A program made the translations under genes and the position numbers. A DNA stretch of 64,000 nt from Provencibacterium sp. (GTDB lineage: Bacteria; Bacillota; Clostridia; Oscillospirales; Ruminococcaceae): the NCBI GenBank assembly GCA_022792175.1, contig JAAWAN010000009.1, forward strand, positions 92,291-156,290. The letters run 5' to 3'. Shown here piece by piece: positions 25,961-60,506 of the stretch; the stretch's first letter is position 1, and each line of letters opens with the position of its first letter. The notes beneath the pieces are model-generated. The model was not told where the DNA came from. It ran no database searches and saw only the letters and a program-made list of their open reading frames with translations.

Positions 25961-26932
25961 TTGCAAACAGCATTTTCTGTTTTTCTTTCTTTTGGTGTTT
26001 ACAGCTTCCTTGGCTGGGTCTGTGAAACGTTTTACTGCTCGGTGGGGCAGCGGCATTTTGTTAACCGCGGTTTTCTCTTTGGGCCGGTCTGCCCGGTCTA
26101 TGGGTTCGGAGCACTGGCAGTGCTCTATCTGCTCGCTCCCTTTACCCGCCAGCCCATTTTGCTGTTTATCGCAGCAATGGTGGTTACCAGCCTGCTCGAA
26201 TACCTGACCGGCTTTCTGCTCGAAAAGCTGTTTCATACCAAATGGTGGGATTATTCCACCTACCGCTTCAACCTGCACGGACGGGTCTGCCTTAAAAACT
26301 CGCTGCTGTTCGGGCTAATCGCCCTCATCATGGTCCTGTTTATCAATCCGGCCGTGCAGCGGGGGCTCTCCCAACTTTCTCCGCCCGTCTCCGCCGCCTT
26401 TTCCCTGCTGCTGGCCGCTGCCTTTATGGCGGATACGGTGCAGTCTGTGCGCAGTGCCCTTGCTCTCAGCCGGAAGGCGGAGCAGCTTTTTGCCCTGCGC
26501 GCCGAGCTTCGGGAGAAGAGCGCCGCCTACCGGGAGGCACTGCAGCAGTTTATCTCCCTGCAGGCAGCAGACAGCGAAGAGCTGCGCGCCGCTATCCGCG
26601 AAAAGCTGGATGCGCTGCCCCGGTTTGAAGGCAGCGAGGAGCTGCGCGCCGCCATCCGCGAAAAGCTGGATGCGCTGCCCCGCAAAAAGCACAGCGAACC
26701 GGTCTCTGAAGCGCTGCATGCCAGGCTGGAAGAGCTGCGCGCACACACTGAGGCGCTGTACGCCGGCTTTTCACAGCTTTATCAGCGCCGCGAAAGGCTG
26801 ACCGATTCTGCAAACAGCCACCGCCGCCTGCTCACCGCCTTCCCTGGCATGCGCTCGCTGCGGCATGAAGGCATATTGGAAGAGCTGCGCCTGTCGCTCA
26901 AAGAACGAAAAAACCAGCGGAATGCAGAATAA
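25961..26932 (+). CDS. Multi-TM protein of the putative ABC-transporter type IV (CmpB-like) family with C-terminal coiled coil
   Basis: FLSFGVYSFLGWVCETFYCSVGQRHFVNRGFLFGPVCPVYGFGALAVLYLL; TTG start. Confidence 0.8.
   Translation: MQTAFSVFLSFGVYSFLGWVCETFYCSVGQRHFVNRGFLFGPVCPVYGFGALAVLYLLAPFTRQPILLFIAAMVVTSLLEYLTGFLLEKLFHTKWWDYSTYRFNLHGRVCLKNSLLFGLIALIMVLFINPAVQRGLSQLSPPVSAAFSLLLAAAFMADTVQSVRSALALSRKAEQLFALRAELREKSAAYREALQQFISLQAADSEELRAAIREKLDALPRFEGSEELRAAIREKLDALPRKKHSEPVSEALHARLEELRAHTEALYAGFSQLYQRRERLTDSANSHRRLLTAFPGMRSLRHEGILEELRLSLKERKNQRNAE
26573..26692 (+). repeat. Two tandem 60-bp in-frame repeat units
   Basis: 26573-26632 and 26633-26692 each encode SEELRAAIREKLDALPR plus a 3-aa spacer; nearly identical DNA. 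Confidence 0.93.
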
Positions 26933-32282: not shown

Positions 32283-32960
32283 CTACCGCTCCCTCTGTTT
32301 TTTCAGTAGAGCTTCCATATATCGGTAGTCCTCCTGCAGGCGGGGATTATTCCACCTTTTTTGGGCGCCTTCAAGCAGGCCTTCCGCCTCGTCATACCGC
32401 CCCTTTTCGACTGCCGCCAGCATTTCCAGCACCGCCAGATTCCCGCCCAGGGAAGAATTTTCCCGAAAGCGGGCAAAGTCCTTTTTGCCCGCCTCATAGA
32501 GCGCGAGCGCCTTCTCCCCCTGCCCGGTATAAAAACAGCAGAGACAGAGGTTCAAGCAGTGAACTGTTTTCATGATTCCAAAAAGCCGCTCGCCCGAAAG
32601 CCCCTCCAAAATTTCGAGCGCCCTGTCAAACTGCTTCTGCTCGCAGTAGCCCGCGGAGAGGTTCAGGCGCAGCAGGTTTTGAAGGGCCCTGCCTCTGGCA
32701 CAGGCAAGCAGCTTTTCTACCGCCTCGGTATACTCCTGCGCCCTGCCCTCCTCCAAAAGAACCAGCGCCTGCCGCATCTTTTTTTGATAGCTGCCGGTAT
32801 ATAAAAGGCTTATCAGCGCCGCCCCGGCCACTATGGCTACGCCGGCAATCAGATAAAAGCGCATGAACGCCGCCTCATCTATCTGAAAAAACGCCCGAAT
32901 GGCAGCCAGCAAAAGCCCCAGGCATATCCCGGCCACGACTACTTTAGCAAAATGCTTCAT
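32283..32960 (-). CDS. Membrane-anchored TPR-like hypothetical protein
   Basis: MKHFAKVVVAGICLGLLLAAIRAFF...; two N-terminal TM segments then helical repeats. Confidence 0.65.
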   Translation of the reverse strand: MKHFAKVVVAGICLGLLLAAIRAFFQIDEAAFMRFYLIAGVAIVAGAALISLLYTGSYQKKMRQALVLLEEGRAQEYTEAVEKLLACARGRALQNLLRLNLSAGYCEQKQFDRALEILEGLSGERLFGIMKTVHCLNLCLCCFYTGQGEKALALYEAGKKDFARFRENSSLGGNLAVLEMLAAVEKGRYDEAEGLLEGAQKRWNNPRLQEDYRYMEALLKKQRER

Positions 32961-33008
32961 AAACCTGTCCCATCTGTTTTCCTGTTCTGCTATCCCGCAT
33001 CCATGGTA

Positions 33009-33072
33009 TGCCATGCCCATAGGGCGGCCGAATAATGGAGGTAAATAGCTGCTTTCAGCTATTATATCATAC
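33009..33072 (-). repeat. Dispersed palindromic element, copy A, with embedded promoter
   Basis: Minus strand TATAATAGCTGAAAGCAGCTATT...ATTATTCGGCCGCCCTATGGGCATGGC; ATGACA lies 17 bp upstream of TATAAT. Compare copy B at 53101-53164. Confidence 0.8.
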
Positions 33073-33146
33073 TTTCATCCCTCTGTCATGAGCCTTCCCC
33101 CTCCGCGCCGAAAATTATTACCTATGACGAAATTCTTCTCCCCATC

Positions 33147-33175
33147 TTGCAGGAACTCCCCGAAGATTGTATGAT
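33147..33175 (+). promoter_or_regulatory. Candidate promoter for queT
   Basis: ttgcag-N17-tatgat, about 75 bp upstream of the queT start. Confidence 0.6.
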
Positions 33176-33250
33176 AGAAAAGCGGGATTTTCCCGCAGTC
33201 AGTCGCAAGCTCCTGACTTAAAACCATACTACGAAAGAAGGACTACAAAA

Positions 33251-33817
33251 ATGAAAAGCAAAACCCATCAGCTGGCGAGCGCCGGCCTTATTGCCGCGCT
33301 CTACACCGCCCTGACCGTCGCGCTCGGGCCGCTCAGCTATCTGGCGGTGCAGGTGCGCATCTCGGAAGCGCTGACGCTGCTGCCCATCTACTCGCCCGCA
33401 GCGCTCTGGGGGGTAACGGTCGGATGTCTCATCTCCAACCTCATCGGCGTACTGCTCGGCACCAACATCATCGGCGTGTTCGATGTACTCTTCGGCACTG
33501 CCGCCACGCTGCTGGCCGCCCTCTGCAGCCGGGCGCTGCGAAATCTCCGCCTGCGCTGGCAGACAAAAGAGGGAAAAGAGCTTTCGCTGCCCATCGCCTC
33601 GGCCATTCCCCCGGTTATCCTCAACGCCCTTGTTGTCGGGCTGGAGCTCTGCTATGTACTATCCGGCGGCTTTCAGCTGAAAATCTTTCTGATTCAGGCC
33701 TTTTGGGTCGGGTTCGGCGAGCTCATCTCCTGCCTTGTGTTCGGCATGGCCCTCTGCTTCTCGCTCGAGCGCACCGGGCTTGACAAAAAGCTGTTCGGCC
33801 AGCAGGCAGCCGTATAA
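33251..33817 (+). CDS. queT: QueT family queuosine-precursor transporter
   Basis: LASAGLIAALYTALTVALGPLSYLAVQVRISEALTLLPIYSPAALWGVTVGCLISNLIG. Confidence 0.9.
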   Translation: MKSKTHQLASAGLIAALYTALTVALGPLSYLAVQVRISEALTLLPIYSPAALWGVTVGCLISNLIGVLLGTNIIGVFDVLFGTAATLLAALCSRALRNLRLRWQTKEGKELSLPIASAIPPVILNALVVGLELCYVLSGGFQLKIFLIQAFWVGFGELISCLVFGMALCFSLERTGLDKKLFGQQAAV

Positions 33818-52874: not shown

Positions 52875-53100
52875 CTTGTGCCTCCTGTTCCGCCGGACAC
52901 AGCCGGCTTTATTTTTTGTGCCCCTGCAGGATTTTGCCTCCTGCTTATACCGGGAACCGAAATTTCCCACATATATCATTATAGTCCGGGCTTTCGGTCT
53001 TTTCAAGGGCTTTGTTAAATTTCAGGCAAATATTCATGGAAAATTAACCGTCCTCACTGGAAGCGCCGGATAAAACAGGTGCATGCACCCTGCTGCCGTG

Positions 53101-53164
53101 GTATAATAGCCGCAGAGCGGCTATTATACGCCAAATTTATTCGGCCGCCCTACGGGCATGGCCA
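53101..53164 (+). repeat. Dispersed palindromic element, copy B
   Basis: GTATAATAGCCGC-AGA-GCGGCTATTATAC perfect palindrome followed by TTTATTCGGCCGCCCTACGGGCATGGC. Confidence 0.8.
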
Positions 53165-53199
53165 ATGAGAGTACAGACGCTGTGCGTCTGTACTCTCAT
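53165..53199. repeat. Perfect 16-bp inverted repeat with 3-nt loop
   Basis: atgagagtacagacgc-tgt-gcgtctgtactctcat. Confidence 0.95.
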
Positions 53200-53242
53200 C
53201 CCCGCAGAAGCGGCTACTATCCCCTATTTATTTGGCAATATT

Positions 53243-53311: not shown

Positions 53312-53848
53312 ATGGGTTCCAACGAAAGCCATGGATTTTTGGAGCTGGCTGCCAAACGTTATTCCGTCCGCAAATTTCTGGACCGGCCGGTCCGGCAGGA
53401 GGATATCGACCGGATTCTGGCGGCCGGCCATCTTGCGCCGACCGCCTGCAACCGCCAGCCGCAGCGCATTTTGGTCATTAACAGCAAAGAGGGCGCGCTG
53501 AAGCTGCGCAAATGCACCGAATGCCACTTCGGCGCGCCGGCTGCACTGCTCGTCTGCTATGACCGGGATGACTGCTGGCAGAGGAAATATGATGGAAAAA
53601 AGAGCGGGGAAATCGATGCCAGTATCGTTGCAACGCATATGATGCTGCAGGCCGCCTGCCTGGGGGTCGGCATGACCTGGGTGATGTATTTTCTCCCCGA
53701 GGCCTTTAAGGAGGAGTTCGGTATCCCCGAGCATATCGAGCCGGTCGCGCTGCTTCTGATGGGCTATCCTGCGGAAGATGCCCGGCCTGCCCCGGGGCAT
53801 TCGGAATTTAAGCCCATGAGTGAGCTGGTTTTTTATGGCGGGTTCTGA
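53312..53848 (+). CDS. Nitroreductase family protein
   Basis: FLELAAKRYSVRKFLDRPVRQEDIDRILAAGHLAPTACNRQPQRI...; RBS aaggagg upstream. Confidence 0.9.
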   Translation: MGSNESHGFLELAAKRYSVRKFLDRPVRQEDIDRILAAGHLAPTACNRQPQRILVINSKEGALKLRKCTECHFGAPAALLVCYDRDDCWQRKYDGKKSGEIDASIVATHMMLQAACLGVGMTWVMYFLPEAFKEEFGIPEHIEPVALLLMGYPAEDARPAPGHSEFKPMSELVFYGGF

Positions 53849-60286: not shown

Positions 60287-60302
60287 TTTCTGCCGGAAGA
60301 TG

Positions 60303-60506
60303 TCAGCAGCCGCAGCCATCGTTGCAGCAGCAGTTGTTGCAGCCACAGCCGTTGTTGCAGCAGCAGTTGTTGTTGCAGCCGCAGTTATTGTTGTTGTTGC
60401 AGCCACAGCCGCTGTTGCAGCCGCAGCCATTGGAGCCCCAGCCTCCGCAGCCACAGAGAAGAAGGACGATAATAAGTATCCACCAGCAGCCATTGAATCC
60501 ATTCAT
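60303..60506 (-). CDS. Small membrane-anchored Cys/Asn/Gly-rich repeat protein
   Basis: MNGFNGCWWILIIVLLLCGCGGWGSNGCGCNSGCGCNNNNNCGCNNNCCCNNGCGCNNCCCNDGCGC; RBS aggagg 9 nt upstream; terminator downstream. Confidence 0.8.
   Translation of the reverse strand: MNGFNGCWWILIIVLLLCGCGGWGSNGCGCNSGCGCNNNNNCGCNNNCCCNNGCGCNNCCCNDGCGC

Follow-up and report, generated by a model that had tools for sequence, protein, structure and literature searches.

Two copies of a hairpin-forming repeat of gut Clostridia, about 75 to 115 bases in length, lie in the window (the whole 64-kb stretch of DNA analyzed here), and members of this repeat family sit directly behind the −10 box of a promoter, reading in the direction of the downstream gene. 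We regard this position as practically certain. The same promoters occur without the element in related species, and it therefore resembles a small mobile element with promoters as its landing sites, one that keeps the −10 box intact. On balance, we favor the explanation that it is a small, non-autonomous mobile hairpin repeat, inserted directly 3′ of sigma-A −10 hexamers in a fixed orientation; mobility itself appears likely from the comparison of sister species.

A sequence-only reading of the window had claimed two copies of a dispersed palindromic element, and both exist, copy A on the minus strand and copy B on the plus strand. Their 26-bp cores differ at a single base (shuffle expectation within the window, 0.00), and the paired T-A to C-G change between their palindromes is real. 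The symmetry claimed for the first palindrome (P1) is perfect in copy B, where GTATAATAGCCGC-AGA-GCGGCTATTATAC has 13-bp arms (GTATAATAGCCGC/GCGGCTATTATAC; positions 53101 to 53129, plus strand), but is eroded in copy A, where AATAGCTG-AAAG-CAGCTATT (33044 to 33063, minus strand) retains arms of ~8 bp (AATAGCTG/CAGCTATT), followed by TTACC, and has lost its outer pairs. On the minus strand, copy A also has the ATGACA described earlier, a −35-like hexamer at 33089 to 33084, separated by 17 bp from a TATAAT at 33066 to 33061 on the 5′ edge of P1, which we assigned as the −10 hexamer via the family-wide −35 peak at 17 bp. Behind it are the core (33010 to 33035), with the hairpin GGCC-GCCC-TAT-GGGC-AT-GGC, and ATACCAT (33003 to 33009), a remnant of the left arm of the second palindrome (P3) without a terminal TATAAT. 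The 225-amino-acid gene downstream (32283 to 32960, minus strand), previously called a TPR protein, has no Pfam match at 1e-5. Copy B, all on the plus strand, begins with the extended −10 TGG-TATAAT (53099 to 53107, with TATAAT at 53102 to 53107). Its core and hairpin (53137 to 53162) are followed by the P3 hairpin ATGAGAGTACAGACGC-TGT-GCGTCTGTACTCTCAT (53165 to 53199), in which the sequence is replaced and the 16-bp pairing perfect, and, by eye, by a degenerate second P1 (CCCCGCAGAAGCGGCTACTATCCCC; 53200 to 53224). The downstream gene (53312 to 53848) matches PF00881, as expected for the nitroreductase named earlier.

Elsewhere in the window, the leader between copy A and a divergent gene (33150 to 33250, plus strand; gene start near 33252) contains CAGTCAGTCGCAAGCTCCTGACTTAAAACCATACTA, which recurs nearly unchanged on the opposite strand in L300 of the sister genome G011. 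This is possibly a riboswitch-like leader; Rfam gave no match for it at 33150 to 33250. A 54-bp direct repeat (94% identity, copies 60 bp apart) lies at 26569 to 26682, and a run of GTTGTTGCAGCAGCAG-type repeats spaced by 15 to 24 bp, likely a coding repeat, at 60300 to 60432.

On the sense strand, a unit consists of P1, which is the −10 box palindrome, the core hairpin, and P3, which ends in a new TATAAT. If GGTATAAT is designated T, then P1 is T plus AGCCGC-AGA-GCGGCTATTATAC, followed by the linker ATTTATT; the core hairpin is CGGCC-GCCC-TAC-GGGC-AT-GGCCG, with a bulge of 2 nucleotides (nt); and P3 is ATTATACCAT...ATGGTATAAT, its right arm being the next T. Units are often in tandem, forming arrays of the type T-unit-T-unit-T with a period of 90 to 91 bp in the source genome of the window and 110 to 112 bp elsewhere. 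The ends of the element are direct TATAAT repeats, and the inverted copies of ATTATACC are internal. The predicted fold is very stable (z = −5.7). Double changes were found at 7 of 23 pairs within the source genome and, across 135 distinct rows from many genera, at 21 of 23 pairs of P1 and core in an alignment that was fitted to the structure and leans toward it; none of 500 shuffles reached any of the measures, and in slid controls the paired fraction dropped to 50% or less, compared with 93%. P3 stems are perfectly or near-perfectly paired in many copies despite varied sequence (for example, ATGAGAGTACAGACGC/GCGTCTGTACTCTCAT in copy B), and the 2-nt AT bulge is conserved across the class. 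P1 is imperfect in some copies (G048 L243, G078 with a C-C mismatch, and copy A).

Rfam searches of the window's own and related loci, at gathering and relaxed thresholds, revealed no family that reached its gathering score on the element, and the two 6S hits obtained were away from it. One genus has two species in which a 6S RNA is close to an array of the element (L110 305 to 496 and L111 761 to 952, minus strand). The cores of L104, L107, L110, L117, L238, L306, and L311 have a conserved asymmetric internal loop (CTC... / ...AACCG) beside the AT bulge; its conservation in several families suggests that this loop may have a specific binding partner.

The source genome (3.05 Mb in 43 contigs) contains 28 matches to the core within 3 mismatches, compared with 0 for the reversed control, and P1 also recurs at further places. 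A covariance model gave 51 hits at an E value of ≤0.01, of which about 35 are real units, grouped into about 30 arrays; the remaining hits are reverse-strand shadows of the palindrome. At least 28 to 32 matches were present in each of the sister genomes G130 and G011. Among named records, the exact core occurs in one Provencibacterium metagenome-assembled genome (MAG) and one uncultured Oscillospiraceae MAG. Pattern R1 matched in 39 of 149 genomes of the family, and pattern R2 in 25 of 295 sampled genomes of the order and 11 of 291 of the class, with R2 matches in eight further families. Across families, the sequence varies while the architecture, AT bulge included, is constant, and each genome has its own element consensus. 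Copy numbers are underestimated because many contigs end in or beside element arrays (C24, C37, and C42 of G000; C28, C29, C36, C45, C51, and C61 of G130; C36 of G011), and the element therefore breaks assemblies of these genomes. With Provencibacterium-type queries, which would miss divergent forms, viral contigs (IMG/VR) gave 0 matches to the core pattern and 0 to the P1 pattern, and BLAST against plasmid and phage records also gave 0; on this basis, a phage, plasmid, or viral origin was rejected.

To the left of the element lies a host promoter. Of the 92 array starts, 85 have TATAAT as the hexamer and 84 have TG before it (−15/−14), and the mean match to TTGACA is maximal at a spacer of exactly 17 bp (2.31, versus a mean of 1.53 and a standard deviation of 0.21), 3.7 standard deviations above the mean of other spacers. 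Thus, the leftmost T is a real sigma-A −10. On the 3′ side of the element, a ribosome site and a start codon come next, usually within 30 to 400 nt of the core; orientation was judged from such ribosome-site starts, Pfam matches, and orthologs. The genes downstream are unrelated housekeeping genes and form no regulon: they encode Lyase_1 (purB), RF-1 (prfA), DHH (recJ), acetolactate synthase (ilvB), Tex, NUDIX, YfhO, mechanosensitive channel, nitroreductase, Mur ligase (folC), and HlyD proteins, among others. An earlier suggestion that the palindrome is a regulon-specific operator is not supported, since a fixed operator would not change its sequence while pairing persists, and these palindromes swap sequence and keep pairing. 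The parallel suggestion that the element carries a promoter has to be amended: the first −10 is the host's, as is any −35, and both occur in element-free sisters; the element adds a second TATAAT at its far end.

To compare occupied and empty sites, orthologous promoters were located by using the downstream-encoded proteins as anchors. For most Provencibacterium sites, at least one sister lacks the element and has the same −35/−10 spacing, with a TATAAT at the point where the element starts. Empty sister sites include those of prfA, folC, yqeG, recJ, ilvB, an acyltransferase gene, fba, miaB, a trmH-like gene, and others; for fba and miaB, which did not pass when the joined flanks were aligned locally, the comparison was visual. 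At prfA, the occupied site reads ATCTGGTATAAT followed directly by AGCCGC..., versus ATCTGGTATAATGATGGG in the sister; at folC, TTTGTGGTATAAT is common to occupied and empty promoters; and at recJ, GGCATGGTAGAATAG stands against GGCATGCTAAAATAG. Six sites are shared with G130 (rumA, NUDIX, tex, comM, hflX, and one more), and the consensus is homogenized genome-wide even at shared loci (tex, rumA, and nudix). A sister-species search found no second species for G078.

The junctions are exact in another genus, g131, whose species are closer to one another. When the flanks were joined at both TATAATs, the sequence across the junction became that of the sister at iscS, a response regulator, an rlmI-like gene, a sigma factor, a methyltransferase, an EF-G-like gene, and other loci, as determined by local alignment of the joined flanks; global alignment placed promoter flanks poorly at some loci. 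The inserts are 106 to 111 bp or 220 bp, that is, one or two whole units, and the number of units at one HD-domain locus varies among four species (3, 1, 2, and 2). A fifth species, G212, is absent from the list of matching genomes and lacks the element at most of the sites that were compared, and gain is therefore favored over loss; we infer that the polarity is one of gain by insertion. A precise deletion between two TATAATs would give identical empty sites. The promoter of the EF-G-like gene at L333 and L360 (g131) is empty except for a single P3 hairpin with TATAAT at its end; the loss of one whole unit from an array would leave such a remnant. Dispersed, palindromic, tandem, present or absent at the same site between sisters, and with a genome-specific consensus, the element agrees in kind with its earlier description as REP/MITE-like.

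In the mechanism that we propose, a unit (about 90 bp in this genus and 106 to 111 bp in another) would enter immediately 3′ of an existing −10. Ending in its own TATAAT, it would leave the −10 both retained and duplicated, so that the promoter keeps a −10 and the native 5′ leader resumes after the second one. Repetition of this step, or unequal crossing-over, would generate tandem arrays. In the open complex, the non-template strand of the −10 is single-stranded; this would account for the choice of target as well as for the orientation. Each unit contains two segments complementary to the −10, and these arms (ATTATA...) may pair as guides with the exposed strand, with a putative single-strand-acting enzyme carrying out the insertion. 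We favor such base-pairing to the −10 by analogy with IS200/IS605, whose member IS608 inserts precisely 3′ of TTAC and recognizes it by guide pairing (PMC5934647), and hold the single-stranded-DNA or guide step as a tentative proposal.

Local agreement between arm and target was seen at three loci. At rlmI, all four species have TACAAT as the native −10, and each of the three arms in the inserted copy agrees with it (ATTGTA/TACAAT); a PTS-like gene has TAAAAT with arm ATTTTA; and recJ has TAGAAT with arm ATTCTA. Arm-target matching is suggestive only, because other copies do not match: a dnaN-like locus has native GCTATAAT versus GATATAAT in the element, and L282 has TACAAT with arm ATTATA. 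A general rule that the element copies the local −10 into its arms was dropped since several copies mismatch. The −10-complementary arms are separated from the core foot by ~12 nt, whereas the guides of IS608 adjoin the foot of the hairpin. Still more speculative is a Clostridia-wide mobile class of hairpins inserted by a putative enzyme into the single-stranded −10 of open complexes through hexamer pairing. The effect on the host, an extra −10 and a structured 5′ leader, is probably near-neutral.

Other explanations account for part of these observations. The element could be a cis-regulatory 5′ leader RNA, riboswitch-like or composed of mRNA-stability hairpins, that is kept by selection, as its invariably sense placement before a gene, strong covariation, stable fold (z = −5.7), and class-wide 2-nt AT bulge would suggest. 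We consider this unlikely given the unrelated genes, the missing element at most orthologous sister promoters, the genome-specific consensus, and a P1 5′ arm that lies upstream of the expected start site. Departures from pairing in P1, by approximate tallies, are A-C (about 40) more often than G-U (about 17), which is not the bias of a sense-RNA helix; as proof regarding an RNA role, this bias was not conclusive, overall counts being 57 G-T versus 75 A-C. P1 is also centered near the expected +1 and contains the −10, and a palindrome spanning −10 to about +20 could act as a promoter DNA switch, extruding a cruciform or binding a dimeric repressor to control open-complex formation. The retention of pairing through sequence change is consistent with this idea, but a fixed operator should conserve sequence and not symmetry alone, P1 is imperfect in the copies named above, the genes are unrelated, and the core, P3, and arrays are left unexplained; such a switch is highly improbable.

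Two further alternatives concern how the element spreads. It may have moved without transposition: promoters that have TATGGTATAAT in common could pass the repeat to one another through recombination or gene conversion, and slippage could add or remove tandem units. The extended −10 direct repeats at both ends, the unit-wise copy changes, and the consensus homogenized even at tex, rumA, and nudix fit this account; the shared homology, however, is only about 8 to 12 bp, and dozens of events per genome would be needed, so we give it a low probability. Alternatively, the element may be a true member of REP/RAYT or IS200/IS605, mobilized by a Y1 transposase. Its bulged hairpin and its insertion in a single orientation 3′ of a short target, between a retained TATAAT and the native leader, parallel those families (PMC5934647, PMC8266576). 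Against this, the Y1 transposase domain (PF01797) is absent from the element-rich sisters G130 and G011 and shows no association with the element over 149 genomes (16 of 39 with the element versus 45 of 110 without), and the GTAG tetranucleotide of REP is found neither at P1 nor at the core foot in the consensus. Membership is thus very unlikely, and a Y1/RAYT transposase as the driver was rejected on the lack of association. Insertion of a small mobile hairpin repeat 3′ of the −10 remains our preferred reading.

Known small bacterial repeats mostly avoid promoters or supply them, and we know of a safe-harbor strategy of this sort for eukaryotic elements only. For this element, the −10 box itself seems to serve as the address and to be restored when a unit inserts. 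Through it, many genes of gut Clostridia acquire another −10 and transcribed hairpins in varying number; therefore, promoter annotation, expression variability, and assembly breaks in these genomes may trace to it. If the open-complex reading is true, such mobile elements would find their sites through the activity of RNA polymerase itself.

Dispersed palindromic repeats and promoter-bearing MITEs are already known, as exemplified by Correia, BOX, and REP (PMC10969869, PMC3049150, PMC8266576). In the open-access literature, we found no repeat that targets and duplicates the −10 hexamer; a description in a closed journal is possible. Like the element, Correia elements of Neisseria lie before genes as small repeats, provide a sigma-70-like promoter sequence, and yield a transcribed structure (PMC10969869). 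However, Correia elements bring their own promoter sequence, whereas the element uses the host −10 as a landing site and duplicates it, and no TA-type terminal inverted repeat was seen in it. Pneumococcal BOX is likewise modular, tandem, and variable in length between strains, with transcribed hairpins, but pneumococcal repeats are reportedly enriched downstream of genes (PMC3049150), whereas the element lies at −10 boxes. Yeast Ty3-type retrotransposons, which land at transcription starts and spare the gene (PMC5911963), are alike in working only and unrelated to an element that is bacterial, about 100 bp long, and without coding capacity. REP/BIME with RAYT (TnpA-REP) shares short dispersed palindromes, a functional bulge, high copy number, and arrays, but REP has a GTAG foot and is described as mostly intergenic (PMC8266576), whereas the element is at promoters, in the sense direction only, with no RAYT in two rich genomes. 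IS200/IS605 (IS608) resembles it in precise 3′ insertion, a sequence kept as the left flank, fixed orientation, hairpins, and pairing-based target recognition (PMC5934647). Here, in contrast, there is no Y1 association, the guide position differs, the target is the −10 hexamer, and one core hairpin is combined with two −10 palindromes in tandem units.
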